IMG/VR virus record: IMGVR_UViG_3300042397_001603
Coordinates: 1 to 45,995 of that record
Origin: a virus
Strand: one strand, 5' to 3'
Length of the DNA stretch: 45,995 bases
In this document: positions 7,759 through 44,575 of the stretch, piece by piece
Layout: each line of letters begins with the position of its first letter
Numbering within the stretch: the stretch's first letter is position 1
Translations under genes and position numbers: made by a program
Notes under the pieces: model-generated
The model's database searches: none
Told to the model about the DNA's origin: nothing
The model's input: only the letters and a program-made list of their open reading frames with translations

Positions 7759-8052
7759 ATGCCAACAACAGAACCAATTAGTTTCGAGCAACCTAAAAAT
7801 GATTTATCATCAATTGCTGAGATGGAGAGAGCAAAATTATTCCCAAAGAATGATTATAAACCAACAAACCAATATTCTGCGGTTAATCCTGACGCTATTG
7901 CCGATGGAGATGCTCAAGGTAAAGGTACTGGAGGATTTTTAGATGTTTATAATCAAGGTGCGGGAGCAATCCAAGACATTTTAGAGAGAAAGGCCGAGGT
8001 AGTTATTAATGAATTTAAACCCAACTCACCGTATACTACACCAAGTGCATAA
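7759..8052 (+). CDS. Small hypothetical protein
   Basis: A 97-residue protein starting MPTTEPISFEQPKNDL, with a low-complexity Asn/Pro/Asp-rich composition and a short Gly/Ala segment around GKGTGGFLDVYNQGAG. It probably has little fixed structure. The stop overlaps the next start (TAATG at 8050-8054), so the two are translationally coupled. No family recognised. Confidence 0.55.
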   Translation: MPTTEPISFEQPKNDLSSIAEMERAKLFPKNDYKPTNQYSAVNPDAIADGDAQGKGTGGFLDVYNQGAGAIQDILERKAEVVINEFKPNSPYTTPSA

Positions 8053-8486
8053 TGAAACTTTACAACACAGTTAAATCTCTTATTTTAGAAGTAGCGTCGA
8101 TTGACTCAATCGTTGATGCTATAAAAAAAAGAAATAAGATAGTAATTTACTATGATGGTGATGAGCCAGGTGGTAGAGGGTTAAGAGAAATCGAACCTGT
8201 TTGTCTTGGGTATAGTAAGTCAGATAATCCTGTTTTAAGAGCTTGGGATAATGAAGGGTCTTCTCATACCGCGTATAAAGGCGAACAACCTTTACCTGGG
8301 TGGAGATTATTCAGAGTTGATAAAATATTATCATTTAAACCAACGGGAGAAAATTTTGATTCATCTAAACCAGGATATAATCCATCAGGGGACAAAAGTA
8401 TGAATAGAGTTATTATTAACGCAGTGTTTAATCAACAACCAACGGAACCAACGGAACCAACGGAACCAACGGAACCAATACAATAA
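8052..8486 (+). CDS. WYL-like domain protein with N-terminal (I/L)xE tag
   Basis: A 144-residue protein. Residues ~17-98 resemble a WYL domain: an AIKKRNKIVIYYDG strand, R-x-IEP at about 45-49, LRAWD at 62-66 and GWRLFRVDKI at 83-92. In bacteria WYL domains are ligand-sensing modules (nucleic-acid or nucleotide binding) usually fused to a helix-turn-helix; no DNA-binding part is present here. The first 13 residues (MKLYNTVKSLILE) are hydrophobic/basic and end in IxE, like a T4 capsid-targeting peptide. The C-terminus is a PTE x4 tandem repeat. The domain call is moderately firm; packaging into the capsid is inference. Confidence 0.65.
   Translation: MKLYNTVKSLILEVASIDSIVDAIKKRNKIVIYYDGDEPGGRGLREIEPVCLGYSKSDNPVLRAWDNEGSSHTAYKGEQPLPGWRLFRVDKILSFKPTGENFDSSKPGYNPSGDKSMNRVIINAVFNQQPTEPTEPTEPTEPIQ
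8441..8476 (+). repeat. Four tandem 9-base repeats coding for PTE
   Basis: The unit AACGGAACC occurs four times head to tail at the 3' end of the WYL-like gene and encodes a Pro-Thr-Glu repeat tail. Identical copies at the DNA level suggest recent expansion by slippage. Confidence 0.9.
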
Positions 8487-21025: not shown

Positions 21026-21050
21026 AATTTTATAGTTAATATTTATTGTA

Positions 21051-23556: not shown

Positions 23557-25136
23557 TGAAAATAGACCAATCTAATAAGTATCAAATTATATTTCCTGGT
23601 ATCGTTTACGATAACCAAGACCCGATGATGTTAGGTAGACTTAGAGTAATACCTGAAACACAAACATATAGTGATATTTTAGCTTCAGTTCCTGATTGGA
23701 ATGAGGAAATAGATAAATGGACTTCTAAAGACCCGTTAATTTTTTTACCATTACTACCTTTTTATTTTAGCCAAGTACCGAAAAAAGACGAGTACGTACA
23801 TATTATATATCAAAATAAAAAATTTAATTTCCAAAGTCAATTTTATATTCAAGGACCGTTTTCGTCACCAATGACAACACCTTTTGAGTATTATCAAGGC
23901 GCTAAGAAATTTTTAGCTGCGGGAGATAGAATTAAACAAGGTATTTCGATTAAAAATAGTGATGGGCAATATCGTAACAAAGATAGTTATGGTGTATTTC
24001 CCGAACCTGGTGATAACGCATTGTTAGGACGTGGTTCCGCCGATGTAGTTGTTAAAGAAAATGAGGTTTTAATTAGAGCGGGTAAAACAAAAGTATTAAG
24101 TACAACACAATTACCTGTTGGAAATGCGATGAGGTCATTCTTACAACTTTCAAATTTTACCCAACAAAAAGTTTTATTACCCCAAGAAAGTCAAGCTAGA
24201 TTAGTTGAAAATGTAAAGGTAGTTAAAAAAATAATAATCTGGGATATTGAAAATTTAGAAAACACTCAAAATGTTTTTAATGGGTCTGTTGGATTATACA
24301 ATGTAATACCAAGTCAGAAAGTTAACAGTAAAAATTTTAAGTCCGACACTATCCTTAACTTAAGTGTTGGTACCGATTATAGTGGCCCTATTGAGGAAGT
24401 AAAATTTACCGCCAAAAGTTTTAACGAATCATTAACTTTAATTAATAAATTTAGTGATGGAGTTTTTAAAAAATTTATTGATTTACCTAATTATGTTGTT
24501 AACAACCAATTACGTAATATACCTCAAGACCAAATATTTCCATTTGTTGTTACCCCATCAAAATTAACTTATGAAAAAGGTGTTAAATTCTCACCATCAC
24601 AAGTTGTAAATGATGTTGCGGAACTAACTAATTATGTTAATTTTTATAGTAAAATTAAATTAAATATGGGGTTAGTTAATAGTGGGTGGTTTTTAGTTTG
24701 GGAAAACAAAAATGGAACTGCACTTATTGGACCTCAAGGGGATATTAAAACTGAAACAGTTACTCCATCCGAGTTTGTACCTTCAGATGTCACTTATGGT
24801 GTCTTAGGAGCTCAAAAAATTTATTTACTATCTCAAGACTCTACAGGACCTAAAGGTAAGATTAGTTTAAGTCAAACTTTATATGGTATACCACAAGATA
24901 AATTTATTGGTGACGAAAGTAGTATTTTTAATAAGACATACCCAACAACAAGAGGTGATGAGTTAATGAAACTACTTAGAAAAATATTTTCATTTGTTAC
25001 TGGTCACGTACATCCTGTGGCTACGGCACCACCTATTCCTGTTGCCGCAGGTAACGGACAAACCTCCGCAGAAATTAATGCAATTCTTGCTGACGCAGAA
25101 AATACCATCCTAAATCAAAATATCCGAATTAATTGA
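23556..25136 (+). CDS. Baseplate hub/spike protein with gp5-like OB domain
   Basis: A 526-residue protein. The start [19 protein letters not shown] followed by [25 protein letters not shown] and FYIQGPFSS is the pattern of the OB-fold at the N-terminus of T4 gp5/VgrG-type spike proteins. The middle is beta-rich with aspartate/glycine turns. Near the C-terminus, [13 protein letters not shown] has an H-x-H pair (H484, H486) resembling the iron-binding histidines at the tips of phage spike proteins. It would form the membrane-piercing hub or spike trimer. No lysozyme insert is evident. Moderate-to-good confidence in the OB domain; the exact T4 equivalent is uncertain. Confidence 0.65.
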
Positions 25137-25144
25137 TATTTATA
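25135..25144 (+). promoter_or_regulatory. GATATTTATA late-promoter candidate
   Basis: The element GATATTTATA lies 14 bases upstream of the ATG at 25159. The same decamer recurs at 26638-26647, and on the minus strand upstream of the genes starting at 31770, 35851 and 38460. Confidence 0.5.
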
Positions 25145-28274: not shown

Positions 28275-28306
28275 AAAAAAGAGGTCTAATGACCTCTTTT
28301 TTTTTT
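28275..28306. terminator. Bidirectional intrinsic terminator
   Basis: A 12-bp stem (28275-28286 with 28291-28302) with a TAAT loop. It has T runs after it on the plus strand, and A runs before it that read as T on the minus strand. It lies between two convergent genes, and the minus-strand stop is inside its tail. Confidence 0.9.
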
Positions 28307-29750
28307 ATTCTGTATAATCTTTAATTTTAATTACAAACCTTCTATTAGGTTGTGTTTGGTCAGTAGTAGTTGATTTTTCTTTTGTCCATCCTGGCCCGAA
28401 CTCAGTCGTTTCACCTTTACCAATAGGGGTCATAACAATACCCGTTTTCTCTTTAATCATATTAGCGATTGTATTTGCTCTTTGTTGTGATAAACATTGA
28501 TTATACTCACCAATAGTTTTAGATGATTGACATGCAGGTAATTTACCAATTATTCTATCGTTAGGGTCTTTATCTCTTGATGAATATCCGATAATTAATG
28601 GGACGTTTTGTAATAAGAATTTACCATACTTAGGATATGTTTTCAAGTAACCATTTAAATTAGAAATAAATTTATCAATCTTATCTTGAGCTTCAGGTTT
28701 TAATTCTGTTTTGTCAAATACGAACGGTTCTGTAATATCCAAACTAATATTAGTCGGTGTTGGTGTTGTTTTTTTTGATGACCCACCAATTGTAACTTCA
28801 GTACCAGGTCTTGCGCCAGGATATAACATCACATAATACCCTTTTCCACCCTTCTTATAATACATCATAGGTGAAATGGTAGTATCTTTAGATTCGGTCA
28901 TTCCGATTGATTTTAAGACACTTATGTCCTCTGCAACAATATTACCCGTGTAAACAACTGGTTTACCGATTGAGGCCTTATTAGGAACACCTTCAGGTGC
29001 CACGGCAATAAATTTGTATCTTACATTATTATATTGTCCAGGTTGTATATCAGAACGAACTATATCATTCCAATAAAACTCTGTGAATTCGATATTTGTT
29101 CTATAGTCCTCGTCAAGTACTTCACCTGTTTTAACATCTACTTTGAAGTCGTATAACTCCCCGTTTAATGCGTAGTCTGGTTTTACTTCACCTGTTGATT
29201 TATTAAATAATACCGTGTATAATTTTCCATCAATAATTTTAAATCCTAAACCTGTTGCACCTAACTTATAATAAGTTTTTTCATCATCTTGTTCAGATAA
29301 AATTCTTTTTACCATTCGAATAATATCACCTTCGTTAAGTTTAATTACTTTCTTTTCACCAACAACTACAGTGTCTTTTTTTATTTCAATCCACTCTTTT
29401 AGAGTTGTGATTGGTACAATACTTTTTTTACCTCCAGGTGTTTGGTTTATATTATTACCTTCATCATCACCAGATGTTAAAGTAGGGTGATTCTTAATAT
29501 AATTGGAGATGTTTTTTGCTTTATTTTCCATCTTTTTAATTTTCTTTTTAGGGGTACTCATTTTACCGTCATAACTGTCGTATCCCAACTCAGTATTGAC
29601 ATACTTTGATACGGGTGTTATAAATGGTTGTAACGACTCTTTACTAAATTCTCTAACACCAGGTTGTAAAGGAGAAACATAGGACCCTCTACCCCCATTA
29701 CTGTCAGAAGTTGCCTCGAGTAATACTTTCTTTATTAATTGATTTAGCAT
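28305..29750 (-). CDS. OmpA-like peptidoglycan-binding protein with capsid-targeting-like N-terminus
   Basis: A 481-residue protein with no signal peptide. The first 12 residues (MLNQLIKKVLLE) form a basic amphipathic segment ending LLE, followed by ATSD; the major capsid protein has the same ATSD after its predicted cleavage site. A second segment of this kind (VIKLNEGDIIRMVKRILSEQ) lies at about 135-154. Residues ~345-478 match the OmpA C-terminal domain: a FVFDKTELKPEAQDKI start, CLSQQRANTIANMI near 419-432, a G-x-G segment and NRRFVI at 469-474. OmpA domains bind peptidoglycan. I infer an internal or injected virion protein that engages the cell wall. Late-type element at 29768-29776. Confidence 0.75.
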   Translation of the reverse strand: MLNQLIKKVLLEATSDSNGGRGSYVSPLQPGVREFSKESLQPFITPVSKYVNTELGYDSYDGKMSTPKKKIKKMENKAKNISNYIKNHPTLTSGDDEGNNINQTPGGKKSIVPITTLKEWIEIKKDTVVVGEKKVIKLNEGDIIRMVKRILSEQDDEKTYYKLGATGLGFKIIDGKLYTVLFNKSTGEVKPDYALNGELYDFKVDVKTGEVLDEDYRTNIEFTEFYWNDIVRSDIQPGQYNNVRYKFIAVAPEGVPNKASIGKPVVYTGNIVAEDISVLKSIGMTESKDTTISPMMYYKKGGKGYYVMLYPGARPGTEVTIGGSSKKTTPTPTNISLDITEPFVFDKTELKPEAQDKIDKFISNLNGYLKTYPKYGKFLLQNVPLIIGYSSRDKDPNDRIIGKLPACQSSKTIGEYNQCLSQQRANTIANMIKEKTGIVMTPIGKGETTEFGPGWTKEKSTTTDQTQPNRRFVIKIKDYTE

Positions 29751-29767
29751 AGATATTTTAGTATACT

Positions 29768-29776
29768 TATAAATAT
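29768..29776 (-). promoter_or_regulatory. ATATTTATA element for OmpA-like gene
   Basis: Read on the minus strand this is ATATTTATA, 17 bases upstream of the ATG at 29750. The 48-base gap also serves the divergent gene at 29799, which sees the opposite orientation. Confidence 0.45.
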
Positions 29777-29798
29777 ATCAAAAAAAGATATTTTCACA

Positions 29799-30032
29799 AT
29801 GGAAGAACAACAATTATTTGGAAAACTATTCGACACAATACCTCTACTAACTGAGGACCATTTAGACGTGCTACTACAATCTATGGATAAAGACAATGCT
29901 TCATACCTATTAATACAAGCGGTTAAGAAGGCATACCACGAGGGGGTTTATTCTTTAGGTGAGGCAGAGGTTGTATCAAGAGCAATTAGAGTTATGTCAA
30001 AACAGGAAATTAAAAATGAAACAGAAGATTAA
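29799..30032 (+). CDS. Small acidic protein coupled to methylglyoxal synthase gene
   Basis: A 77-residue, acidic, helical protein starting MEEQQLFGKLFDTIPLL. No motif recognised. It overlaps the methylglyoxal synthase gene by 17 bases, so the two are likely translated together. This two-gene plus-strand unit sits in the middle of minus-strand genes, consistent with a transferable cargo cassette. It could be a partner or regulator of the enzyme. Confidence 0.6.
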   Translation: MEEQQLFGKLFDTIPLLTEDHLDVLLQSMDKDNASYLLIQAVKKAYHEGVYSLGEAEVVSRAIRVMSKQEIKNETED

Positions 30033-30399
30033 ATTAGCGTTAATCGCTCACGACGGTAAGAAGGCCGATATGGTATCATTCGTAATGAAACGACTACCTT
30101 TCTTCACTTCAGATAATGTTGAAGTAGTTGCCACAGGTACAACAGGAAAACATTTAAAACATGCTGGATTAACTAAGGTTGAGACGATGTTAAGTGGTCC
30201 TATGGGTGGTGACGCTCAGATTGCGTCAATGATTGTAAACAAAGAAGTCGATATAGTTATATTCTTTATCGACCCCTTAGAAGTTCATCCACATCAAGTA
30301 GATGTTAGTATGTTATTAAGAATTTGTAATGTCCATGACATTGCAATCGCTACGAATTATTCTACCGCTAGTAGATTAATCAGTCCCTTAGAAGATTAA
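30016..30399 (+). CDS. mgsA: Methylglyoxal synthase
   Basis: A 127-residue protein with all residues known to matter in E. coli MgsA (152 aa): H12, D13 and K16 in AHDGKK; T40, T42 and T43 in ATGTTG; S60, G61 and D66 in SGPMGGD; D86 in DPL; H93 and D96 in HPHQVD. The enzyme converts dihydroxyacetone phosphate to methylglyoxal and phosphate. I chose the ATG at 30016 (MKQKIKLALIAHDG), because the frame upstream of it (from 29959) lies in the preceding gene and lacks family similarity. It is shorter than the bacterial enzyme at both ends but complete in the core. Its stop overlaps the stop of the convergent gene. Phosphate release or disruption of host glycolysis are inferred roles. Confidence 0.95.
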   Translation: MKQKIKLALIAHDGKKADMVSFVMKRLPFFTSDNVEVVATGTTGKHLKHAGLTKVETMLSGPMGGDAQIASMIVNKEVDIVIFFIDPLEVHPHQVDVSMLLRICNVHDIAIATNYSTASRLISPLED

Positions 30400-30878
30400 A
30401 CCGTTAAGCTATCAACAGGTTCATCTGTTGCTGACGCAACTGTAGTTCCAGCGGGTGTTTGTACTCCTGCGGGTGTTTGTACTCCTGCAGGTGTTTGTAC
30501 TCCTGCGGGTGTTTGAGTTCCCGAACTTTTACTCAAATCAATACCCGTACAAGCATTAATTGCGTTCATAGTATTAGTACCGTATATACCATCCTCAACT
30601 AATTTTTTAGATATCTTAGTACATTTATCGTTAATTTTAACTTGTACATCTAAAACTTTTTGTTTACATCTTGTAGGATTTTTAGTTGTTGTACAATCTA
30701 CTTTTCTATCTTGGGATGCAGGAGCTGCGGTTGCAGGAGCTGCGGTTGCAGGAGTTGCGGTTGCAGGAGCTGCAGTTACAGGAGCTGGTGTTTGTTCCAT
30801 TAATCTATTTTTATACGTGTTATGTAAATTTAAAATAGACTCTTTTTCAGATTCAGTTATTTTTATAATTTTCTTCAT
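30396..30878 (-). CDS. Peptidoglycan-binding-like protein with repeats and LxE N-terminus
   Basis: A 160-residue protein. N-terminal helix MKKIIKITESEKESILNLHN runs on to RLME at 25-28, an LxE site. An Ala/Pro/Thr repeat (~31-54) follows, then a Cys-containing domain (~60-112) with DGIYGTNTMNAI near 96-107, the signature end of PG_binding_1 domains. The tail has four TPAGVQ repeats. The N-terminal segment is clearly related to that of the next gene (shared ILNLH). No signal peptide. Possible internal virion protein that binds the cell wall; the PG-binding call is moderate. Confidence 0.6.
   Translation of the reverse strand: MKKIIKITESEKESILNLHNTYKNRLMEQTPAPVTAAPATATPATAAPATAAPASQDRKVDCTTTKNPTRCKQKVLDVQVKINDKCTKISKKLVEDGIYGTNTMNAINACTGIDLSKSSGTQTPAGVQTPAGVQTPAGVQTPAGTTVASATDEPVDSLTV
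30446..30516 (-). repeat. Tandem 18-base repeats coding for TPAGVQ
   Basis: Near-identical 18-base units give four successive TPAGVQ-type repeats in the C-terminal tail of the peptidoglycan-binding-like protein. A second repeat with GCAGGAGCTGC-like units (about 30719-30785) codes for its Ala/Pro/Thr linker. Confidence 0.85.
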
Positions 30879-30894
30879 TTTAATAATTAATAAT

Positions 30895-31770
30895 TTAAAG
30901 TTTAGTCAATACCATATCTAAATCTGTATCTGAAGGTATTGTTGGTTGTTTAACTTTTGTCTTAGTATTTGTCTTAGTATTAGACGATTCTTTACCACAA
31001 GAATAACTGGCCATAGTTCCGTCGACCAATTTTTTTCTACCATTCCCGTAATAAACCACCCCATCAATTATGTAAGCAATACTACCGTCACTCAATTTTG
31101 ATGATTTCGCTTTTGGGTTACTTGGAATACAAGGAAATTTTTCAAATCCCTTTACGACACTTGATTCCTTTTGTGCCGCCAATTTTTTACCAAGGTCAAC
31201 ACTGTTTTCATATGCGTCTAATAATGGTAAAAAAACATATTGTTTCCATTCACCCTCAGAATCGATGTCCCCATCAATTGCTGCGAATAAACTTTCACCA
31301 TGTCTTGTATTATATATGTTTGACATCGCACATAAATCAGGAATTGTTGTGATTTTTTGTAGATTACTTTTAATTGCATCCTCATCAGTACCCATACCAT
31401 CAACCGCTGCGTTAATACCATCGGCAATACCATTTAATGTGGCTCTACTCAGTGTTGATTTACCAACTTCTTTTAAATTTCCACAAGCTTGTAAAATTTT
31501 TTCGGCACCTTTGTAAGAATAATTCCCACCATTAATTAATCCGTTAATTAATCCAATCGCTCCACCGATAATTGCTCCTGGAACTAAACCAACGGCTCCA
31601 CCAATTGCAGCACCTGTTGCCATTGACGCCATTACACCATCTTCGGCTAACTCATTTTCAGATGACATCATAGTGTCGTCTTCTTTAAGATATTGTTTTT
31701 TAGTTGCTTCTTTATGAAGATTTAGAATTCTTTTAGATTCTTCTTCATTTAAAAAATATAATTTTTTCAT
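30895..31770 (-). CDS. Glycine-zipper, annexin-repeat-like protein with LxE N-terminus
   Basis: A 291-residue protein. Residues 1-30 (MKKLYFLNEEESKRILNLHK onward to YLKE) resemble the N-terminus of the previous gene product. Residues ~48-82 are a Gly/Ala zipper (GAAIGGAVGLVPGAIIGGAIG), typical of membrane-inserting helical hairpins. Residues ~117-187 resemble one annexin repeat: G125-M-G-T128-D-E, with an acidic residue (D168) 39 residues after the Thr, the spacing of type II calcium sites. The C-terminal part has Cys and a YYGNGRKKLVDG motif. No signal peptide. I infer a virion protein that inserts in membranes upon ejection. Late element at 31789-31797. Confidence 0.55.
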   Translation of the reverse strand: MKKLYFLNEEESKRILNLHKEATKKQYLKEDDTMMSSENELAEDGVMASMATGAAIGGAVGLVPGAIIGGAIGLINGLINGGNYSYKGAEKILQACGNLKEVGKSTLSRATLNGIADGINAAVDGMGTDEDAIKSNLQKITTIPDLCAMSNIYNTRHGESLFAAIDGDIDSEGEWKQYVFLPLLDAYENSVDLGKKLAAQKESSVVKGFEKFPCIPSNPKAKSSKLSDGSIAYIIDGVVYYGNGRKKLVDGTMASYSCGKESSNTKTNTKTKVKQPTIPSDTDLDMVLTKL

Positions 31771-31816
31771 ACCTATTTCTGTTTAATATATAAATATCTG
31801 TTTTTTCGAAAAAAAA

Positions 31817-31847
31817 GTTGTGGATTCAGTATATTTACTTATCTTTG
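31817..31847 (+). promoter_or_regulatory. Bacteroidota-type promoter for a small RNA
   Basis: GTTG at 31817-31820 and TATCTTTG at 31840-31847, separated by 19 bases, fit the Bacteroidota TTTG/TAnnTTTG promoter. Transcription would start near 31852-31855, in a gap that has no plus-strand gene. Confidence 0.7.
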
Positions 31848-31852
31848 TAATG

Positions 31853-31964
31853 TGGTTGAGGGAAACGATTCAGATACAACTAAATCAATCATAATGGTTA
31901 GGACGAAAACCTCCTAATTTGAACGGGATAGAAACGATTTAGATACTAAGTCCCGTTCTTTTTT
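31853..31964 (+). ncRNA. Candidate ~110-nt phage small RNA
   Basis: This stretch has its own promoter (31817-31847) and an intrinsic terminator (8-bp perfect stem 31921-31928 with 31951-31958, then T6 to 31964). Between them is a hairpin (TTAGGA with TCCTAA) around 31898-31916 and a 16-base direct repeat, GAAACGATTCAGATAC at 31862-31877 and one with a single change at 31931-31946. Only very short frames exist (14 codons from 31850, then 7 codons after a TAATG overlap), so a leader peptide cannot be excluded. It overlaps the end of the minus-strand gene at 31963 by two bases. No known RNA family recognised. Confidence 0.6.
31921..31964 (+). terminator. Terminator of the small RNA
   Basis: Stem GAACGGGA with TCCCGTTC, 22-base loop holding the second copy of the 16-base repeat, followed by T6. 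Confidence 0.75.
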
Positions 31965-32376
31965 AAATCCAAATAACAAATTGGTCTTTACCAACTCTAA
32001 AAGATAAATCATACGATTCTCTAAAAACGGTAATTATAAGTAATTTCCAATAGGAGCCACCACCATGTTTTGGTACTATGACCATAGCGATTTCTTTTTC
32101 TTTTGATTTAATAACAAATGCTACATCATCTTTAATCTCTCCTGTGGTAATTCCTTCCGCAATTTCTCGTCTACAACTCTCAATTATATATTTTAATTCA
32201 CCGTTAGATATTTCTCTATCATTATAATCAGGAATATCAGTTCTGTTTTTTCTTTCATATGCGTGGGTAGTTCTATCAATCTCAAAACCAAAGGCAATTT
32301 CTATTTTGGCCATAATATGCCCAATTTTCTTTTCTAATAATAAATGTTCTTTGATTAATCTACGTAATTCGCTCAT
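31963..32376 (-). CDS. Hypothetical protein with LxE N-terminus
   Basis: A 137-residue protein when started at the ATG at 32376 (MSELRRLIKEHLLLEKKIGH). I prefer this start to 32400 because an ATATTTATA-like element at 32381-32389 would otherwise be inside the gene. The N-terminal basic helix ends LLLE. The body is mixed alpha/beta (GYKEIAMVIVPKHGGGSYW-type strands; THAYERKNR near 38 resembles phage-encoded toxin or nuclease-like motifs but not convincingly). No family assigned. It lies downstream of the capsid gene's terminator. Confidence 0.55.
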   Translation of the reverse strand: MSELRRLIKEHLLLEKKIGHIMAKIEIAFGFEIDRTTHAYERKNRTDIPDYNDREISNGELKYIIESCRREIAEGITTGEIKDDVAFVIKSKEKEIAMVIVPKHGGGSYWKLLIITVFRESYDLSFRVGKDQFVIWI

Positions 32377-32447: not shown

Positions 32448-34319
32448 TTATCTCAATTCTCTTAAGTCGAATGTTCTAACTCCATCAACTGTGATACGTC
32501 CGTAGAAACGGTTGTTAACCATTTTCTTAGCGTAACGTGTCATAATACCTTTAATAGGTGTGAAGTTGAATGGGTTATACATTGTAGGTGTTAATTGTAA
32601 TGGTACATACGGTGCGTAGATGTAACCTGTGTCTAACAATGACGTTCCTTTATGTCCTACTAACACTGTGTTAGCTGGGAAGTAAGGGTCACGGTAAACT
32701 TGGTAACGACCTGCTAATGTTCCAACTCTTTCAATACCCATGTTGTATTGGTCTTGCTCTGGAGACGCGTTAGATACGTGGAAGTACTCTAAATCATCAA
32801 AAATAGCCGAAATCTCAGAAGAAACTACAATCCAGTTAGCTCCACCTCTTAATGTAGATTTGTGGATTTGTGCTGACAATTGGTTAATTGCAGTAATTAA
32901 TGTTTGATTCCAATCTTTTTGAGTATAAGATGTAGTTTGAGAAATTCTTCTCCATCCGTTGTAATCCCAACGTAAGTTCCATGCCGCACCTTTACGTAAA
33001 TCTCTTAAGATTTCACGGTCGATTTCAGCAGCAACTTGTTCAGATAATAAAGCCGTTAATTCAGCTTCAGCATCGATGTTGTGGAATGCAGCAACGTCTT
33101 GAGCTAACTCAGGAGACCATTGTGCTCTTAATTTTCTTTCTGTAACAGATACAGTAACTGAATCTAAGTCGAAAGAAACCTCACCGATTTTATCTTCAAA
33201 TTCTAATTGTTCGTAACGTCTGAACGCTGCGTAGAATGATGTTCCTGAAGACGCTTCAGTAATAGTAGTACCTGTGTAACCATCTAAAGATGTAGAATCA
33301 CAATCAGCACATACTGGACAAGATAAATCAACTTCTAAGTAGATACATCCGTTAGCGTCACATACGGTTTTAAACGAACCACCGTTACCTGCAGGGTTAT
33401 TACCTGATGCCGCTGGCCAATTAGTTTGAACTGTATTACCGTAAGAAACGATTCCTTTACCATATTGTTGAGTAACAACTCTGAACAATAATGCTCCTGT
33501 TGAAACTGTACATGGAGAACCTTCAGCAACTGTTAAACCAGCACCTGTAAAGATAACTAAATCAGATAAGAAAGATTCTGTATCCATTTCATTACCGTCA
33601 GGTCCGATTAATTTACCAGCTCCTGTATCAGCGAAACCACACATTTTAACAATAACTTTTCTTGTGTTACCTGAAGCAATTTCAATACCATTTGCTGGTG
33701 CACCATCATTAATAGTTGCATCAACTAATGACCCATTTGACCATGCTTGAATCAACGTACTTGCAGTGATTGCTGACCAACGACCTTTTGAATAATCGAA
33801 TAAACCTGCTGGGTCTAAACCTGGTTCAGTTCCTTCGTAGAATAAGTCATAAAGGTTTTTAGCAACCGCTCCAGTTCCTGTGTAACCTGCATTTTGAGAT
33901 GTTGGTCCGTTTGGTGCTCCTAGTGGTGCGTAGTGGTCTCCTGAAGATACATCACTCCATGGAGTGTTAGTACCACCTGAATACCCTTGAATTTTAGGTA
34001 CAAAGAAGAATAATTTACCGATTGGTAAATTCATCGCTTGTACTGATACGATGTCATTCGCTAATAATTTAGAGAATACACGTCTTACGATAGGGAATAC
34101 AACAGTTTCAAATGAACCTGAAGACCCGTCAGACGTTGCTTCGTTAATTAAGAAAGACGCTTGGTTCTCATATAACTGAGCTACGTTTTCTTTTAGGTGA
34201 CCTTTAAGGCCTTCTAGGAATCCTAATTTATCCCATTTGTTGATAGTATCTTCTTTGATAACTTTAAGGTGTTTTAACCCGATGTTACCAACAAGACCTG
34301 ATTCTAATAATGCTCCCAT
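32448..34319 (-). CDS. Major capsid protein (T4 gp23-like)
   Basis: A 623-residue gp23-type capsid protein. The N-terminal ~60 residues are the helical delta segment, ending FLINE60 followed by ATSDGSSG; this fits T4 prohead protease cleavage at IxE and lies close to T4's cleavage after residue 65. VVFPIVRRVFSKLLANDIVSVQAM (~73-96) and EDKIGEVSFDLDSVTV (~375) are typical of HK97-fold phage capsids of this group. A loop at ~318-341 holds five cysteines. It is the last gene of the module, behind scaffold and protease genes as in T4. About 100 residues longer than T4 gp23 (521). Confidence 0.93.
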   Translation of the reverse strand: MGALLESGLVGNIGLKHLKVIKEDTINKWDKLGFLEGLKGHLKENVAQLYENQASFLINEATSDGSSGSFETVVFPIVRRVFSKLLANDIVSVQAMNLPIGKLFFFVPKIQGYSGGTNTPWSDVSSGDHYAPLGAPNGPTSQNAGYTGTGAVAKNLYDLFYEGTEPGLDPAGLFDYSKGRWSAITASTLIQAWSNGSLVDATINDGAPANGIEIASGNTRKVIVKMCGFADTGAGKLIGPDGNEMDTESFLSDLVIFTGAGLTVAEGSPCTVSTGALLFRVVTQQYGKGIVSYGNTVQTNWPAASGNNPAGNGGSFKTVCDANGCIYLEVDLSCPVCADCDSTSLDGYTGTTITEASSGTSFYAAFRRYEQLEFEDKIGEVSFDLDSVTVSVTERKLRAQWSPELAQDVAAFHNIDAEAELTALLSEQVAAEIDREILRDLRKGAAWNLRWDYNGWRRISQTTSYTQKDWNQTLITAINQLSAQIHKSTLRGGANWIVVSSEISAIFDDLEYFHVSNASPEQDQYNMGIERVGTLAGRYQVYRDPYFPANTVLVGHKGTSLLDTGYIYAPYVPLQLTPTMYNPFNFTPIKGIMTRYAKKMVNNRFYGRITVDGVRTFDLRELR

Positions 34320-34351: not shown

Positions 34352-35851
34352 TTATTTTAATTTTGACATTAAATCTTTCATTCTTAAGAACTGAGGATTT
34401 TCGTATGTTTTAGACTCAATCAAGTTAGCCGAAGAACCTGTTGATGGAGAACTTTGAATGGTTCTTTCCATTGATTCATTCATTGGTTGACTTGTCGTAG
34501 CCGAAAGGTCATCTTTTAATGTCTTATACAAGTTTTTAGATTCTTTAATAGTTTCAACACTATCAAAACGTCTTAAGATATTAATCTTCTCTTGTTTTGA
34601 TGTCGAATGTTCTGTAAACAAACGTGTAGCATAAGCTAAGTTTGAATTAAACACTGCAACTTCGTTTAATTTATTTCTGAAAACGTTAAGTGCTTTTCTG
34701 TACTCTTCATTTTTTTCTCTAAGAACTTGTAATTCTTTGTTATCAACACTCTCTTTTTGGATTGCGGTATTAAATTTAGAGTGAGCTCTTGGTTTTGATA
34801 AACCACCCTTTCTAAAGTTAGAACCGTTTCCTAAAGTTCTTGATGCTTCTTTGGTTTCAACCTTTTTAACAGTTTTCATATCACCGTCAAGATTTTCACC
34901 GTCTTTGTATTCAAATTTCGCTTTACCAGTACCCATAGTTTTATTAACTGTTTTTTTCACAGTTTTGAAACCACCTTCTTGGTTAGGTTTGTTTGAGTAT
35001 ACTTTTTTCTTATTTGGATTTCCCATGCCAACACCCTTAGGTTTGATTGACATCTTTTTAGATTCCATAACAGGTTCTTCTTCCATATCCTCGTCTTCTT
35101 CTTCGTAAGATTCGTACATTTCTTCTTCTACTTCATCTTCTTCAGATAGACCCATATCTTCTTCACCTTCTTCTTCGTTGAATTCAATTTCATAAACAAT
35201 TTCTTCACTGTCCATTCCTTCTTCTTCTCCGAACTCTAATTCATCTTTTTCAAAATCCATTTCTTCTAATTCGTCGTTATCTTTTTTAAATACTCTATCA
35301 ATGATGCTATTGATGTCTTCGTCTTCATCGTCTTCCATACCAAAATCTGACATATCATCCATTTCAAACATTTCTTCAGAATCATCCATAAATTCTTCAC
35401 CTTCACCAACAATCATATATTCTTTTTCAGAATCTTTAAGATTGATATTACCTGAATTATCTTTGGTAACCACGATATTATCTTCAGGTCCCATTAAACT
35501 AAATACACGTAAGATTTCATCTTCGTCGTCAACGTCGGTAAGGTCAATAGTTTCATCGTCATCCATAAAGTCATCCTCCATAGAATCTTCATCATCCATA
35601 TCCATATCTAAATTATCAGTATCCATTTCCATTCCTTCGTCGTCAGACATATCGTCTTCCATTTCAGGCTCGTCCATTTCAACATCCGTTTCAATCTCGT
35701 CTTCTTGTTCAGTTAGAGATTCTTTTACTAGTTCTTTGATTTCTTCCTTCATAGTTGAAGCAAGTATTCCTTTTGCATTTTCCGCAACCGCTTCTTCCAA
35801 ATTTTTCATTTGGATGATTGCTTCTTCCACTAAAGATTTTTCTTTCGCCAT
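34352..35851 (-). CDS. Prohead scaffold/core protein (T4 gp22-like)
   Basis: A 499-residue protein with a helical N-terminus (~1-50), a strongly acidic low-complexity region (~50-265, Asp/Glu/Met-rich), a basic Lys/Gly segment (~265-370) and a C-terminal helical part (EEYRKALNVFRNKLNEVAVF). Position directly before the major capsid gene, and this composition, match T4 gp22, the scaffold that is degraded by gp21. LVKESLTEQ near 43-51 may contain a protease site. An ATATTTATA element lies at 35873-35881. The open frame on the opposite strand is a Ser-rich shadow. Confidence 0.85.
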   Translation of the reverse strand: MAKEKSLVEEAIIQMKNLEEAVAENAKGILASTMKEEIKELVKESLTEQEDEIETDVEMDEPEMEDDMSDDEGMEMDTDNLDMDMDDEDSMEDDFMDDDETIDLTDVDDEDEILRVFSLMGPEDNIVVTKDNSGNINLKDSEKEYMIVGEGEEFMDDSEEMFEMDDMSDFGMEDDEDEDINSIIDRVFKKDNDELEEMDFEKDELEFGEEEGMDSEEIVYEIEFNEEEGEEDMGLSEEDEVEEEMYESYEEEDEDMEEEPVMESKKMSIKPKGVGMGNPNKKKVYSNKPNQEGGFKTVKKTVNKTMGTGKAKFEYKDGENLDGDMKTVKKVETKEASRTLGNGSNFRKGGLSKPRAHSKFNTAIQKESVDNKELQVLREKNEEYRKALNVFRNKLNEVAVFNSNLAYATRLFTEHSTSKQEKINILRRFDSVETIKESKNLYKTLKDDLSATTSQPMNESMERTIQSSPSTGSSANLIESKTYENPQFLRMKDLMSKLK

Positions 35852-35872: not shown

Positions 35873-35881
35873 TATAAATAT
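35873..35881 (-). promoter_or_regulatory. ATATTTATA element for scaffold gene
   Basis: On the minus strand the sequence reads GATATTTATATAG, 21 bases before the ATG at 35851. A second copy (ATATTTATA at 35939-35947) lies further upstream, after a terminator. Confidence 0.5.
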
Positions 35882-36240: not shown

Positions 36241-36969
36241 TTAATATCCTAAATAATCGTTCAATTTTTTCATTAAGTCAAGTGATTTATTTCCACTTTC
36301 CCCAACTTGTCTTTCGACTTTCATTTTTTTCTCCTCTTCCAAGTTCTCCTCAAAGTTAAATCTATCTTCAGGATTTTGGAATAAATACGCTCCTGGTGTT
36401 GATGGTGAGGATACTAAGTCAAAACAGATTAATTCAAAATCTTCTTGGACCTCATTCTGTTCACCAACTTTTTTAAGGGAACCAACTCCTCTTGAAGAGA
36501 TTCCTAACGTAACTCCTTGTCTTAGGTAATTAGCGGCTAAATCTCCTTTAGTTGATACAATACCTCTTTCGTGGAATCCTGGTGATGTAAGTAATTGTAT
36601 CTTACCCATTAGTACAGGACCTTCCCACCATATTTCAGTTATTGCATGAGAAACTCTATCTAAATCAATTAATGACGATTCAGGGTGATTTAACTCTGAA
36701 AGAGCGGTGCCCTTTTCTATCATTTTTTTATAGTTTTCTGATTCTCTTTTTAAAATACGTTCAGGGTATATTCTACCATTTCTGTTTGGGGTATTATATT
36801 TCTGTAATACCGCATAAAATTCAAATGGTTTAGAGTGGTCTAACATATTACCTTTAGATTCTTTAATAACCTTAGCATTATGTGTATCTGTTGGTGATAC
36901 GTAACCCGCATCGTATTCTATTAATATACCTTTACCTATTTCAGTTGGTTGTAAAATTCTTAAATTCAT
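36241..36969 (-). CDS. Prohead protease (T4 gp21-like)
   Basis: A ~242-residue serine protease of the phage prohead family. A likely catalytic triad is visible: His in SELNHPESS, Ser in GVTLGISSRGVGS and Asp in FDLVSSPSTPGA. It would cleave scaffold and capsid proteins at (L/I)xE. I choose the ATG at 36969 (MNLRILQPTEIGKG) over 36999, because an ATATTTATA element at 36984-36992 ends 14 bases upstream and the first ten residues of the longer form lie over it. The longer form would overlap the previous gene by 8 bases. It lies between core genes and scaffold, as in T4. Confidence 0.85.
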   Translation of the reverse strand: MNLRILQPTEIGKGILIEYDAGYVSPTDTHNAKVIKESKGNMLDHSKPFEFYAVLQKYNTPNRNGRIYPERILKRESENYKKMIEKGTALSELNHPESSLIDLDRVSHAITEIWWEGPVLMGKIQLLTSPGFHERGIVSTKGDLAANYLRQGVTLGISSRGVGSLKKVGEQNEVQEDFELICFDLVSSPSTPGAYLFQNPEDRFNFEENLEEEKKMKVERQVGESGNKSLDLMKKLNDYLGY

Positions 36970-36983
36970 CTCAAATGTTTTAT

Positions 36984-36992
36984 TATAAATAT
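36984..36992 (-). promoter_or_regulatory. ATATTTATA element for protease gene
   Basis: AATATTTATAATA on the minus strand, overlapping the stop of the upstream gene and 14 bases from the preferred start at 36969. Confidence 0.45.
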
Positions 36993-37462
36993 TAAACATT
37001 CTCTAATTGTAGCGTATCATCGTTTGTTTTGATTTTTTTAGTTAGATAAAAGTTGAAGTAATCGTTACCGATAAAGTTTTCGTAAAAAATTCTATTAGTA
37101 ATATCTTTAAGTGAATCTTTAATTTCTTTTGATTTAAAGTCATGTCCTTCATGATTTAAAAAGAAATTAATCTCTAAGTTCATAAAAGATTTTTTACCTT
37201 GATTTAATCCGCTGGACCTTAAATCTAAATCTACTATAAATTTATCATCAAATAACTCTTTATCTAAGGATTCGTAGACCGAATGTTTTATGGCTCTGCT
37301 CATATTGAGAACTGTCCTTGTCCAATTTTCGCACTCTGTAGTTGGTTCTACCCATGTTTGGATGTTAAGATAGAGTGACTTTAAATTCATCGAATCAACT
37401 GTTCCATATACTACCTTGGCAGTGTTGAATCCGTGAATGTGTGAGGTTTTACCCTTTTTCAT
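36992..37462 (-). CDS. Hypothetical protein between portal and protease genes
   Basis: A 156-residue protein starting MKKGKTSHIHGFNTAKVVYG. Mixed alpha/beta; LKSLYLNIQTWVEPTTECENW and MNLEINFFLNHEG are beta-strand-like, with a helix in the middle (RTVLNMSRAIKHSVYESL). Its position corresponds to T4 genes 67/68 (prohead core), but it does not look like those small acidic or basic peptides. I do not recognise a family. The N-terminus has no LxE tag. Confidence 0.6.
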   Translation of the reverse strand: MKKGKTSHIHGFNTAKVVYGTVDSMNLKSLYLNIQTWVEPTTECENWTRTVLNMSRAIKHSVYESLDKELFDDKFIVDLDLRSSGLNQGKKSFMNLEINFFLNHEGHDFKSKEIKDSLKDITNRIFYENFIGNDYFNFYLTKKIKTNDDTLQLENV

Positions 37463-37549: not shown

Positions 37550-37744
37550 ATGTTAATCATAAAGGTAGAAAAAAATGTAACTCTTGAAAAAGCGTTAAAA
37601 ATTTACAAAAGCAAAGTCATAAAGACAAGGCAAAGTAAGGAATTAAATGAACGAAAAGAATTCCAAAAAAAATCTGTTAAAAATAGGAATATGATTTCAA
37701 AAGCGAAATACGTTCAGAAAAAATATAAATCAAATAACGATTAA
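37550..37744 (+). CDS. rpsU: Ribosomal protein bS21
   Basis: A 64-residue basic protein of the bS21 family: MLIIKVEKNVTLEKALKIYK opens like the bacterial protein, followed by helices KVIKTRQSKELNERKEF and KKSVKNRNMISKAKYVQKKY, with the usual F-x-K-x-S-V-K-x-R segment. bS21 binds the 30S platform near the 16S rRNA 3' end and influences initiation. Here it is alone on the plus strand inside the minus-strand capsid module. Upstream, TATATTTA near 37507-37514 resembles a -7 element. Its stop overlaps that of the convergent gene at 37741. Phage bS21 genes are known in large phages; a role in redirecting host ribosomes is inferred. Confidence 0.92.
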   Translation: MLIIKVEKNVTLEKALKIYKSKVIKTRQSKELNERKEFQKKSVKNRNMISKAKYVQKKYKSNND

Positions 37745-38460
37745 AGATTCTCATTCAAACTTTTAAGTTTGAAATAAGTTAACTTGTCGTATTTTTCTGA
37801 AATTACTTTATCAAGAGTTTCATCAATTCTTGTTTGAGTTGAGTTATCTTCATTATTATTTTTCATTTCAGTTAATTTAGTTACAACACTTTTTTTAACA
37901 TCATCAAATTTTTGGTTTAAAGTAACGTCATCTTCAGATAAAAGTTTTGTTAATTCTTTTTTATCTGACTCAGTTAATGAATCAATAAAATTTGTGATTG
38001 TTTTATTTGCAACATTAACCATAGAAGTTAGCGATATTTGAACAGTATCTGCTTTCTTGATAGGTAATTTCTTAAGAGATTCTGAAATGTATTTTTTACT
38101 AGTTATTCTTGATTCGATTGTTAGGACATCTCTCGAGAATAAATTATCAATATTATTATACTGATTGTCAACCTTAGAATTTTTAATCCAAGACTTTAAT
38201 GGTGTAATATCCGACTCTTGTATTTTATTAATGGTATTTTCATAAATGGTTATACATTCATTCACATATTCATTAACGATAGATTCCGATAATCCTTTAT
38301 TAGAAGATAAATCATCATATAAATAAAAAAGTTTGCATATTTTTTTATTTTCTAAAACTAACTTTTTAAAGTTTTTGAATTCTTGTTTAAATGTGTTGTT
38401 TTTATATGATTCTAATAACACATCTTCTATCTTCGATTTAATTATTCCAAAATTTGTCAT
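37741..38460 (-). CDS. Probable prohead core protein with LxE N-terminus
   Basis: A 239-residue, helical, Lys/Glu/Ser-rich protein. The start MTNFGIIKSKIEDVLLESYK contains LLE at 15-17, like the capsid-targeting-type segment of the OmpA-like protein. The rest shows repeated helices (FKNFKKLVLENKKICKLFYL; KKELTKLLSEDDVTLNQKFD) without Cys or recognised motif. It lies directly after the portal gene, where T4 has core genes 67/68. I infer a prohead core or internal protein. An ATATTTATA element lies at 38473-38481, 12 bases upstream. Confidence 0.6.
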   Translation of the reverse strand: MTNFGIIKSKIEDVLLESYKNNTFKQEFKNFKKLVLENKKICKLFYLYDDLSSNKGLSESIVNEYVNECITIYENTINKIQESDITPLKSWIKNSKVDNQYNNIDNLFSRDVLTIESRITSKKYISESLKKLPIKKADTVQISLTSMVNVANKTITNFIDSLTESDKKELTKLLSEDDVTLNQKFDDVKKSVVTKLTEMKNNNEDNSTQTRIDETLDKVISEKYDKLTYFKLKSLNENL

Positions 38461-38472
38461 CTCTTTTTTATT

Positions 38473-38481
38473 TATAAATAT
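38473..38481 (-). promoter_or_regulatory. ATATTTATA element for core gene
   Basis: GATATTTATAAAT read on the minus strand, 12 bases upstream of the ATG at 38460 and overlapping the portal stop codon. Confidence 0.5.
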
Positions 38482-39818: not shown

Positions 39819-39821
39819 TTA
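39819..39821 (-). other. In-frame TAA interrupting the portal gene
   Basis: Minus-strand reading is KLDA, TAA, then TGIVGCMQLPNIEI with no frame change. A single-base change (from AAA, CAA or GAA) would explain it. Other genes in the window use TAA as a normal stop, so general TAA reassignment is excluded. Confidence 0.85.
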
Positions 39822-42315: not shown

Positions 42316-43641
42316 TTATTTTGGTCTTGATATACCTAAACCACTTAAGAAATCATCTAATCCATCATCGTCATCTTCTTCATCATCACCACCACTTAAC
42401 GCTTCTTCAGCATCATATTGTTTCAGTTCAGTAACGATTTCATTAACCATTCTCTGAATAAATTGAGTTCCTTGTGGGTTACCTGAAAGTATAAGTTTAG
42501 CAACTCTGAAAAATTCTTCAGCATTTAATTTAGAAAATCTCATAAATAAGTAGTGTTGGATATGTTTCATATCCTCATCAAACAATTCCATCGGGTAAGC
42601 CTCTAAGAATTTTTCCCAAAAAATTGGTCCTAAACGAGAATCCCAAATCTCAGCTGGTAAAGTATCCTCAGCCTTCATAATCATTTCTTGTTGTCTTGGG
42701 TCATCAGGTAAACCGTGAGTACCAAATATTTCATAAACACCTTTAACCAATTCATGAACTAAAAGTGGGAACGTCATTGCCCTCGCTTTTACTGTTGGTG
42801 GGTCTGTTTCGGTATCAACTTCTGATTGTCCCATTTGACCACCGCCACCGCCAGCCATTCCTTCCATATCAGGGAATAACCAATATGCGTGTTCCATTAA
42901 AGATTGCGACACGGTGTATAAATTCATTAATCTAGGGTCAACGTCATTAAGTTCTCTTGAAACTAAATTAAACATATGTCCCCCTTTGAAGGCGGCCCCT
43001 TGAATAAGTGAGTTAATAAATCTTCTTTTCGCTCTCTCCAAATCAAATGTTTCGGCATCACCCATAAACTCTTCGATTTCTTCTTCACTTGGCATTTCAG
43101 GTTCTTCTTGCATTCCTTGAGACGCTCCCATTGGTTGCATAACCAATTTAGCATCAAACTGCATCGCTCCTTCAGGAATACCCATTTCTTTAATAACTAA
43201 ATCAACCGCAAGTTGTTCTAAAACTTCTTTGTTTTGCATTTGAATCGACACAACTGTTTGTAGCGATTGCATTGCGGTCATCATTAATGAATTTAATGGA
43301 TTCGCTCCTTGGATTGCTCTGGTATCACCCATGGCTCTTCTAACTTTATCTACAGAATCTTTAAATCTTTTTGAGGAGATTAATTCAATATAATCCTTAT
43401 CCATATCCATATTAGGGATTGCTGGAAAGTTATTATAAGGAGTCCCTTTGGATGTAATTTTTCTTTCAATACCAGGTTCCATTCTTTCAGGGCCTTCATA
43501 ATCAATAGGAGCTTCTTTTAAGTTATTTTTTAACTCACTTAAAAGACTACGTTCACTATTAGTTAAACCTTCACTAACTAATTTTTTTTCTAAAAATTTT
43601 TTAACTTTTAGATTTTTTTCTGTATTTGGATTTAGACTCAT
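42316..43641 (-). CDS. Hypothetical protein upstream of terminase
   Basis: A 441-residue, mostly helical, acidic protein. The N-terminus NLKVKKFLEKKLVSEGLT has an FLE and a VSE segment. The middle contains Met/Gln-rich helices (NPLNSLMMTAMQSLQTVVSIQMQNKEVLEQL) and a Gly run (~265). The C-terminal part (RLGPIFWEKFLEAYPMELFDED; HYLFMRFSKLNAEEFFRVAKLIL) looks globular, with an acidic tail ending in SGLGISRPK. It lies where neck or terminase-associated genes occur in T4-like genomes, but I cannot assign it. Six bases separate it from the terminase gene. Confidence 0.6.
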   Translation of the reverse strand: MSLNPNTEKNLKVKKFLEKKLVSEGLTNSERSLLSELKNNLKEAPIDYEGPERMEPGIERKITSKGTPYNNFPAIPNMDMDKDYIELISSKRFKDSVDKVRRAMGDTRAIQGANPLNSLMMTAMQSLQTVVSIQMQNKEVLEQLAVDLVIKEMGIPEGAMQFDAKLVMQPMGASQGMQEEPEMPSEEEIEEFMGDAETFDLERAKRRFINSLIQGAAFKGGHMFNLVSRELNDVDPRLMNLYTVSQSLMEHAYWLFPDMEGMAGGGGGQMGQSEVDTETDPPTVKARAMTFPLLVHELVKGVYEIFGTHGLPDDPRQQEMIMKAEDTLPAEIWDSRLGPIFWEKFLEAYPMELFDEDMKHIQHYLFMRFSKLNAEEFFRVAKLILSGNPQGTQFIQRMVNEIVTELKQYDAEEALSGGDDEEDDDDGLDDFLSGLGISRPK

Positions 43642-43645
43642 TTTC

Positions 43646-44575
43646 TTACTTTAATTTAATTCCTAATGATTTAAATGATAACCAACTTGGTACCTTTGTT
43701 TTCGCTTTAGGGGCTGGTTTAACTCCTGGCTTAGGTTGGTACGGTGTTGCAGGTTTTGAGGGTCTTGTTGGGGTATCAACATCAGGTTTAACCCCTGGTC
43801 TTGATGGCGCCGTTTTAGTACCTTGTTCTTTAACTAAATTAAGGAATTCCTGCTTAGTCATTTTTGGTGTGATATGTTTTTCCACTAACTTCATAATTTT
43901 TTTCTCTATTTCGTTCTCACCAAATGTAACGCTTGGGGAGATGGAATTCAACTTATTTTTTACTCCACCAGCATATGCCGCAGAAACTTTATTAACTAAA
44001 TTATTTAAACCGCTTTCTTTAGCTTCAGTTTTTTTCTTTTCAGGTAACTTTTTAAAGTTTGTTTTATCGGCAAATTCTTCAGCCATTTTACACCATTTTT
44101 TTTGTTCTTTTGTTTTACCATCACCGCATTTGGCGAAGAAATATTTTTGTTGTTTTTTAGACTCAAATTTTTCCGCAAGATTTTTATACTCTTGTAATGA
44201 ATCAGGGTCACCGTCACCTGTAGGTCCTTTTTGAACTGGGTCTTGTGTATCACCTTTCATTAACCAATTCATTTCAGAATCAGTGTCTTCGGTCATTTCA
44301 GTCTCCATAGGTGTTGCTTTCATAGTACCATCAGGTTTTTTCTCAACCTTATATCCCTTTCCTGTTGGGTTATTTGGTAATTCACCTCCTTGAGTTCCTA
44401 TATTAACAATTTCTTTAGCGGGCTCAGTAGTTTTGGTAACTTGTTCTTTATTTTCTTTTTTAGACTCATTCAGTCTGTTAAACAAAATATCCACTTGTGA
44501 TTCACTTAATTTAGTGACAGTGGAAGCCTTCAACCCGTGTTGTATTAATTTTAATTGTTTTTGGTTAGTTTTCAT
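43646..44575 (-). CDS. Basic hypothetical protein with LxE segment
   Basis: A ~309-residue Lys-rich protein. I use the ATG at 44575 (MKTNQKQLKLIQHGLKASTV), overlapping the upstream gene by 11 bases; a start at 44593 would add six residues. VTKLSESQVDILFNRLNES has the same pattern (K-L-x-E-S, then RLNE) as the N-terminal tags of several other proteins here. The middle has CGDGKTKEQKKWCKMAEEFADKT, a conserved-looking Cys pair. The C-terminus is Pro/Lys-rich. Probable internal or core virion protein by analogy; function not recognised. Confidence 0.55.
   Translation of the reverse strand: MKTNQKQLKLIQHGLKASTVTKLSESQVDILFNRLNESKKENKEQVTKTTEPAKEIVNIGTQGGELPNNPTGKGYKVEKKPDGTMKATPMETEMTEDTDSEMNWLMKGDTQDPVQKGPTGDGDPDSLQEYKNLAEKFESKKQQKYFFAKCGDGKTKEQKKWCKMAEEFADKTNFKKLPEKKKTEAKESGLNNLVNKVSAAYAGGVKNKLNSISPSVTFGENEIEKKIMKLVEKHITPKMTKQEFLNLVKEQGTKTAPSRPGVKPDVDTPTRPSKPATPYQPKPGVKPAPKAKTKVPSWLSFKSLGIKLK

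Follow-up and report, generated by a model that had tools for sequence, protein, structure and literature searches.

Interchangeable N-terminal segments ending in (L/I)xE suggest a large, frequently swapped protein cargo in the heads of T4-like phages

We analysed a 45,995-base virus record with a T4-type head gene block on the minus strand (IMG/VR IMGVR_UViG_3300042397_001603, positions 1 to 45,995; hereafter the window) together with its relatives, with respect to short N-terminal segments ending in (L/I)xE that occur on otherwise dissimilar proteins. We call these segments tags, and the rest of each protein its body. As read from the sequences, the tags recur on unrelated bodies, tags and bodies are exchanged, (L/I)xE is conserved at the junctions, the phage encodes a gp21-type prohead protease, and tagged genes have an upstream element in common with scaffold and core genes. 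This suggests that the heads carry a large, frequently swapped protein set that could enter the bacterium with the DNA. Our best reading is a greatly expanded version of the T4 capsid-targeted internal-protein system, in phages that encode the ribosomal protein bS21 and are predicted to infect Bacteroidetes, and we consider it likely that the segments are modular capsid-targeting propeptides working as in T4.

The preliminary description of the window had listed at least six non-capsid proteins with such segments, all of which lie at the residues it gave when checked in the translations. Three window proteins, designated here like the others by their first coordinate, are called by the tag profiles described below, and the remainder rest on their homologues. 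The former are the OmpA-like protein (28305-29750, minus strand), with a type-C tag at 29715..29750 (-) that ends in LLE12 and is followed by ATSD; the 30396 protein (30396-30878), with a type-D tag at 30795..30878 (-), LME28 being followed by Q; and the annexin-like protein (30895-31770), with a type-D tag at 31681..31770 (-), LKE30 being followed by D. A helix is predicted at residues 9-27 of the latter (mean pLDDT, the predicted local distance difference test score, of 63.7 for the model). The 31963 protein has a tag-like N-terminus at 32332..32376 (-; LLE15 then KK, counted from the ATG at 32376), and its homologues retain, by eye, [LI]xEK[KR]I behind differing starts. In the WYL-like protein (8052-8486), the tag-like N-terminus is found at 8052..8090 (+; ILE13 then VAS), and [LI]xE is present in 7/7 homologues listed. 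The N-terminus of the core-position protein (37741-38460) at 38410..38460 (-) harbours LLE17 followed by SY, with LxE in most homologues and MLE or FVE in some, and the tag-like segment of the 43646 protein at 44465..44575 (-; RLNE then SK, LNE37 from its ATG) is only partially retained among homologues. By eye, (L/I)xE thus recurs in homologues of each protein named earlier, less regularly for 43646 and 37741; individual members of the window set that no profile calls (8052, 43646) are less certain.

The earlier list nevertheless understated the set, as it lacked a site in the 42316 protein, an internal tag in the OmpA-like protein and the size of the tagged set. The tag-like N-terminus of the 42316 protein, at 43513..43641 (-), ends in LKE43 followed by APIDYEGPERM, and its homologues have differing N-termini ahead of one common EAPIDY junction. 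The internal second tag of the OmpA-like protein, at residues 133-153 (KKVIKLNEGDIIRMVKRILSE, LSE153; 29292..29354, -), resembles type A, to whose alignment it was added by hand, and a helix is predicted at 140-152 in a low-confidence model (mean pLDDT 50.8). The translations also bear out that the gp23-type capsid propeptide (34140..34319, -) ends in INE60 followed by ATSD, as LLE12 is in the OmpA-like protein. INE then A is found in 76/76 capsid relatives whose N-terminus was found (76 of 80 loci), usually followed by an A-T/S-rich stretch, which is likewise present in the OmpA-like family.

[LI]xE at residues 10-48 is found in 35 of 55 window proteins and in 400 of 1053 out-of-clade control proteins. 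Because the motif is so common in controls, the window alone could not make the case, and relatives were hence compared. Our sample comprises five related contigs of 229-304 kb, three found via the capsid and two via a tag-A DNA pattern. Genes were called as longest open reading frames (ORFs), some with wrong starts, giving 1667 proteins of at least 60 residues; clustering from residue 46 on placed them in 908 body families. We built profiles for the tag types A (as in MKKIIRLTESDLTRIVKRVIKE), C (as in MNLQESIRRILRE, IIKKVLKE), D (as in MKKLYFLNEEESKRILNLHKEATKKQYLKE), E (as in MKPYINEEIFRIKSIMGLLKE) and F (as in MKIIITESQYKFLTE), with the second-best of 2904 decoys as threshold and a floor of 6 bits. 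These five types together were called in 250 of the 1667 proteins and in 173 of the 908 body families, and in 1 of 1053 clean control N-termini. A further type B (FDLKKFL) was excluded from the tag counts, as one call proved to be a PhoH protein. Per contig, 51/369, 25/235, 50/317, 53/372 and 71/374 proteins are tagged. These counts are probably too low, since untagged genes with the upstream element include tag-like starts. The tagged genes are clustered, 39 of the 72 calls in contig G030 (type B counted) being located between 36 and 73 kb, and the mean net charge of type A, C and D tags is +1.6.

The excess of the motif is position-specific. Among 574 clade proteins of at least 110 residues, one per body family, [LI]xE was counted 495, 316 and 301 times at residues 1-40, 41-80 and 71-110, respectively, and the counts in the same intervals are flat in 711 clean control proteins (345, 347 and 373). 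Over the same 574 proteins, TES gives 37, 7 and 4 and I[IVL]K[KR][IVL][LIV]xE gives 19, 0 and 0. N-terminal 40-mers of 607 family representatives form 886 pairs with ungapped scores of at least 45, versus 41 for internal 40-mers; control N-termini gave 350 high-scoring pairs and were not reduced to one per family, so the internal-segment control alone was used for this comparison. The control loci (L295-L414) had been picked with an arbitrary AT-rich 16-mer. Three of them were removed after strong tag matches (L313, L408) and a clade-type S77 protease (contig of L295) were seen; the numbers of their ORFs matching the clade collection are 6/8 for L295, 12/12 for L313 and 4/5 for L408. As 18 of the 120 control loci are in-clade by protein similarity, members of this clade could be very frequent in the viral collection, and the control was repeated minus all 18, leaving a set in which distant relatives may remain. 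The excess returns in 135 proteins of the in-clade control loci (117, 67 and 66).

We then considered the junctions. In the 65 entries selected by the type-A core with nothing required downstream, [LI]xE is found at core+6 in 50 and 0-4 times at any other offset, and Glu alone is found at core+6 in 57 versus 0-13 elsewhere. Spacing is variable in type D, with [LI]xE occurring 25 times at offsets 5-13 in 33 entries. For the five large contigs, but not for the others, one protein was kept per family, so these numbers, and the 32 for type F given below, are entries and not strictly independent families. Type-C profile matches are uninformative on the Glu, as the profile seeds included it.

The OmpA-like family provides another view of the site. 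In 30 distinct junctions matched with a regular expression, the position two before the Glu (P3), which the expression leaves open, holds Leu 16 times and Ile 14 times, and the residue just before the Glu is free; the Glu itself is 30/30 by construction, being fixed in the expression, and P3 alone is a result. The upstream sequences are unrelated, from IIKKVLLE through MKNNKIHINE to RNWYFKKPINE, and the junction Glu (Glu12 in the window protein) is an invariant column of a 37-row alignment. Another 15 homologue rows fall outside the expression. Two of them are double-listed and one is a different protein sharing the C-terminal half only; the 12 distinct homologues harbour [LI]xE by eye in 11 cases and VKE in one, the double listings being the latter and one of the 11. 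A second domain of the same family, DLAVWFG, which differs from that of the window protein, is directly preceded by Glu in 27/27 distinct junctions, with [LI]xE in 21, and 25 of the 27 lie beyond residue 45 and are thus internal. The 28305 protein of the window, with its internal tag, reads as two cargo proteins fused. Protease sites between fused domains would explain the Glu before DLAVWFG, which a localisation helix would leave unexplained.

Exchange affects tags as well as bodies. Two or more tag types are found in 11 of 35 multi-member tagged families; a DHH-motif protein, for instance, carries either C or F tags and the EAPIDY protein either A or C tags. The YMFFSNL protein has 31 distinct N-termini, some A-like and others C-like. 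Conversely, bodies are replaced behind a constant tag. In locus L017, whose flanks are 99.6% and 99.0% identical to the window (blastn), DNA alignment shows that 542 bases of the annexin-like gene (31148..31689, -) are swapped for 401 unrelated bases. Both versions have the same tag as far as QY, which is completed by LKE in the window and IPE in L017, and the C-terminal KFPC domain (residues 207-291; 30898..31152, -) is near-identical in both. This domain ([FW]xK[FY]PC) is common to several type-D tagged proteins. In 92 near-identical locus pairs, we identified 7 body replacements, each overlapping a gene whose start is a tag or resembles one (in one case by eye), a proportion that is biased because 5 of the 7 are in loci retrieved via the type-A tag. 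Breakpoints in type-A tags lie after E22 (L221/L226) and after Q24, one residue past E23 (L249/L256).

Tagged genes also have a common upstream element, ATATTTAT. In the five contigs, it is present within 70 bases upstream of 118 of 249 tagged versus 192 of 1410 untagged genes, and, for genes preceded by at least 30 intergenic base pairs, of 81 of 109 versus 136 of 591. Twenty anagrams of ATATTTAT gave a mean ratio of 1.0, with 3.1 as the largest. Untagged carriers of a longer form, GATATTTATA, include protease and core genes. In the window, ATATTTAT is located at 31790..31797 (-) upstream of the 30895 gene and upstream of the 28305 (29769-29776), scaffold (35874-35881) and 37741 (38474-38481) genes, and further copies lie shortly upstream of genes for proteins that include some other late-type ones (25136-25143, 21039-21046, 2868-2875 and 1392-1399). 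It was not found upstream of the window capsid, 8052 or 30396 genes. Across the whole window, ATATTTAT is not above chance (16 matches, a number reached in 9 of 100 shuffles), and we therefore used only its start-proximal enrichment in the five contigs. It fits a late-gene element, which may serve as a late promoter or in translation.

Few tagged proteins match known families. In a scan of the 120 longest of 160 eligible representatives (178 families, the PhoH type-B call included), we found three phage lysozymes, two peptidoglycan-binding proteins and single matches that include LysM, M23 peptidase, PPK2, SET, PAP2, DHH, OmpA, M78 and helicase/AAA domains. Searches with a defence library yielded three families, with one member each. 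Two proteins with different tags (G003_298, 529 residues; G002_219, 748 residues) share a DLDG motif like that of DHH phosphoesterases, suggesting a possible nucleotide-signal phosphodiesterase. An injected toolkit of cell-wall-binding, membrane-inserting and WYL proteins had been proposed for the window. The functional labels in this proposal are weak. The OmpA domain of 28305 and the annexin repeat of 30895 score below their curated Pfam cut-offs (21.1 bits vs 27.2, E=3.9e-4, and 16.2 bits vs 25, E=0.011, respectively). Annexins dominate the Foldseek list for 30895, with a best E value of 0.048, a template modelling (TM) score of ~0.2 and 69-75 columns aligned locally at 2.1-4.8 A. For peptidoglycan binding by 30396, Pfam gave no match and PHROG an endolysin at E=0.0046. 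The WYL domain of 8052 is marginally above its cut-off (22.1 bits vs 21.8).

The S77 (gp21-type) prohead protease is encoded at 36241-36999 (-; PF03420, E=1e-24, 81.7 bits vs a cut-off of 27) and the gp23 capsid protein at 32448-34319 (-; gp23 Pfam, E=3.6e-73). The gene at 34352-35851 (-), which adjoins both, codes for an acidic scaffold-position protein with a net charge of -80 and ten [LI]xE sites, for which a Pfam search gave no match. The core-position gene (37741-38460, -) is located where T4 has core genes. The terminase (40540-42309, -), portal and scaffold were named by position and by the annotated gene order in Flavobacterium phage immuto, and not by domain search. The portal gene is split into two open frames (38481-39800 and 39819-40325, -; 439 and 168 residues), and is a single frame of ~600 residues in L035, L049 and other loci. 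On the opposite strand, inside the block, lies a ribosomal S21 (bS21) gene (37550-37744, +; Pfam, E=1.4e-7).

The central idea of the preliminary description, N-terminal tags with the T4-type cleavage motif at their end on non-capsid proteins of a gp21-encoding phage, is well supported by the tag-swapped homologues, the junctions conserved behind unrelated upstream sequences, the body replacements behind a constant tag and the common upstream element. By analogy with T4, we infer the following course, from docking and cleavage to packaging, ejection and an effect in the host. Late in infection, the basic amphipathic N-terminal peptide would dock a newly made protein on the prohead core, which is acidic. 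Confined to the prohead, the gp21-type protease would cleave after (L/I)xE, so that the body stays within the head, and would also cleave internal (L/I)xE junctions between fused cargo domains. The body would then be ejected together with the DNA. The T4 logic fits, given the basic tags and the scaffold-position protein of charge -80. We also lean, with less assurance, towards a broader proposal, namely that in an abundant clade of large T4-like Bacteroidetes phages, capsid targeting has turned into a general cargo platform. There, 11-19% of the proteins would carry interchangeable, protease-removed tags, internal sites would separate fused cargo, bodies would be swapped behind constant tags among near-identical phages like polymorphic effector systems, and dozens of host-modifying proteins per virion might be delivered at infection.

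Several explanations compete with the propeptide reading. The tags might remain uncut and act as amphipathic helices that direct late proteins to the inner membrane or to another assembly site, (L/I)xE being only part of the helix pattern; they are indeed short, basic and predicted to be helical in one model, and their cleavage is putative. However, L/I-x-E is retained where the rest of the tag differs wholly and also at internal domain junctions, the body starts directly after the site, and the site is exactly restored after a body swap (LKE, IPE), making this explanation unlikely. We regard as similarly improbable that the tagged proteins are packaged and cut but serve head assembly, as core proteins or determinants of head size that are degraded or stay in the structure, without being delivered. 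The 37741 gene is at the T4 core-gene position, and T4 core proteins are likewise cut at (L/I)xE according to the available text of PMC9026906, and 37741 itself probably has such an assembly role. Cargo, however, is a better fit than assembly for dozens of strain-variable genes without homology to each other, among them those with lysozyme, PPK2, SET and DHH matches, and for the exchange of bodies between near-identical phages. Breakpoints at or near tag ends could also mean that tags are mainly recombination homology, i.e. duplicated 5' ends for body swapping devoid of targeting function. This view leaves unexplained (L/I)xE behind dissimilar upstream sequences and at internal junctions, and we hold it for very improbable, although tags may act as homology arms in addition to targeting. 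Finally, chance might be invoked, since AT-rich sequences encoding Lys/Ile/Glu-rich proteins often contain (L/I)xE and, as said, 400 of 1053 controls have it at residues 10-48. The position-specific excess and the behaviour of the tag profiles against decoys and controls refute it for the tag set as a whole, where we give it next to no credence.

Other observations weigh against the capsid-targeting propeptide reading itself. Type F ends in [LI]xE in just 13 of 32 entries, the one OmpA-like homologue mentioned above has VKE at its junction, and strict (L/I)xE is missing in some homologues of 37741, 42316 and 43646. The tagged lysozymes could be ordinary lysis enzymes. Consensus tags A and D gave no match in the annotated phages collection, and hence no cultured phage with exactly these tags is available from it. 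The S77 protease and gp23 are present in 16/21 and 14/21, respectively, of the contigs of at least 84 kb retrieved with the tag-A DNA pattern (G001 was retrieved and excluded; for this retrieval and one further, 80 of 120 stretches were listed). S77 is also present in 4/7 random-16-mer contigs of at least 84 kb (4/14 at 50 kb or more). Given these similar random contigs and the 18 in-clade control loci, the S77-tag association was dropped as evidence.

As for relatives, the closest cultured phages by capsid are Microcystis phage Mel-JY01 (42% identity) and immuto (41%), over about half of the protein; the host strain of immuto is Flavobacterium sp. LMO8. From the viral collection, which holds at least 600 relatives by capsid, we retained 80. 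The type-D profile matched in 13 of 19 records searched, with no match in immuto. In immuto, the profiles called 6 of 219 proteins, five of them as type B, and by eye about ten tag-like N-termini lie between 102 and 126 kb. In a 50-kb stretch of LR756508, a 484-kb uncultured phage, approximately 20 of 61 ORFs have, by eye, variant N-termini as in MKLTERKLRNLVKEVLKE. Contig G027 (268,739 bases; loci L275 and L294) has two S77 proteases and two gp23 genes, corresponding either to two head modules or to a chimeric assembly. Host prediction from genome-contig matches was not used, since the names on the seven loci found in metagenome-assembled or single-cell records are mixed (Prochlorococcus, Paludibacteraceae, Bacteroidales, Mycoplasmatota, Acidobacteria and others). 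At the end of the window, a collagen-like SSGTSG repeat protein (1-1374, -), probably a fibre, runs off the sequence.

If our reading is correct, a catalogue of virion-delivered proteins becomes readable from sequence, with hundreds of candidates whose function is mostly unassigned, and the group of environmental phages concerned looks common. Counter-defence and take-over proteins could be found via the tag rather than by homology. It would also provide several new targeting peptides and a concrete prediction on the contents of large phage heads. A search of open-access literature (capsid targeting in jumbo or huge phages, Bacteroidetes and metagenomes; string LTESDL) turned up no account of these tags, most subscription journals and preprints being outside the scope of that search.

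The comparisons that follow draw on the available parts of the cited papers. In T4, a capsid-targeting sequence (CTS) brings internal proteins (IPs) into the core and gp21 cuts after L/I-X-E; once injected, the IPs block type IV restriction enzymes (PMC9026906, PMC5694885, PMC12373910). A T4 IPIII form with Asp in place of the Glu is reported to be packaged but to stay unprocessed (PMC9026906). In T-even phages, the IP genes vary and are identified through the leader they encode (PMC12373910). As on IPI-III and Alt of T4, a short N-terminal peptide ending in L/I-X-E is found here on non-homologous proteins, in a gp23/gp21 phage and on a variable gene set (PMC9026906, PMC12373910). The number of IPs is three in T4 and reportedly reaches at least 10 in related phages (PMC12373910), whereas we count 25-71 tagged genes per contig. 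The phages described here further depart from T4 in the dissimilarity of their tags, which fall into at least five types, in the sites at internal junctions and in the replacement of bodies while the tag stays constant. Giant phages of the phiKZ/SPN3US type also have many head proteins cut after Glu by a gp21-like protease (PMC5694885, PMC9026906). The phiKZ motif is S/A-X-E and SPN3US-type propeptides are mostly >100 residues long (PMC5694885, PMC9026906), in contrast to the L/I at P3 in 30/30 OmpA-like junctions and the ~12-30 residues of our tags. Like the window, bS21 phages harbour a reverse-strand bS21 gene inside the terminase/portal/protease/capsid block (PMC9723584). They are predicted myoviruses with predicted Bacteroidetes hosts and genomes of up to 331 kb, and the same work raises possible encapsulation of bS21 (PMC9723584). 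No tag was found in the first residues of the window bS21, so this idea gains no tag-based support. The available text of PMC9723584 does not describe tags or internal proteins, the word 'internal' having 0 occurrences in it. The principle is thus known from T-even phages, and what is new is the far larger number of cargo genes, the several dissimilar tags, the internal sites and the cassette exchange.

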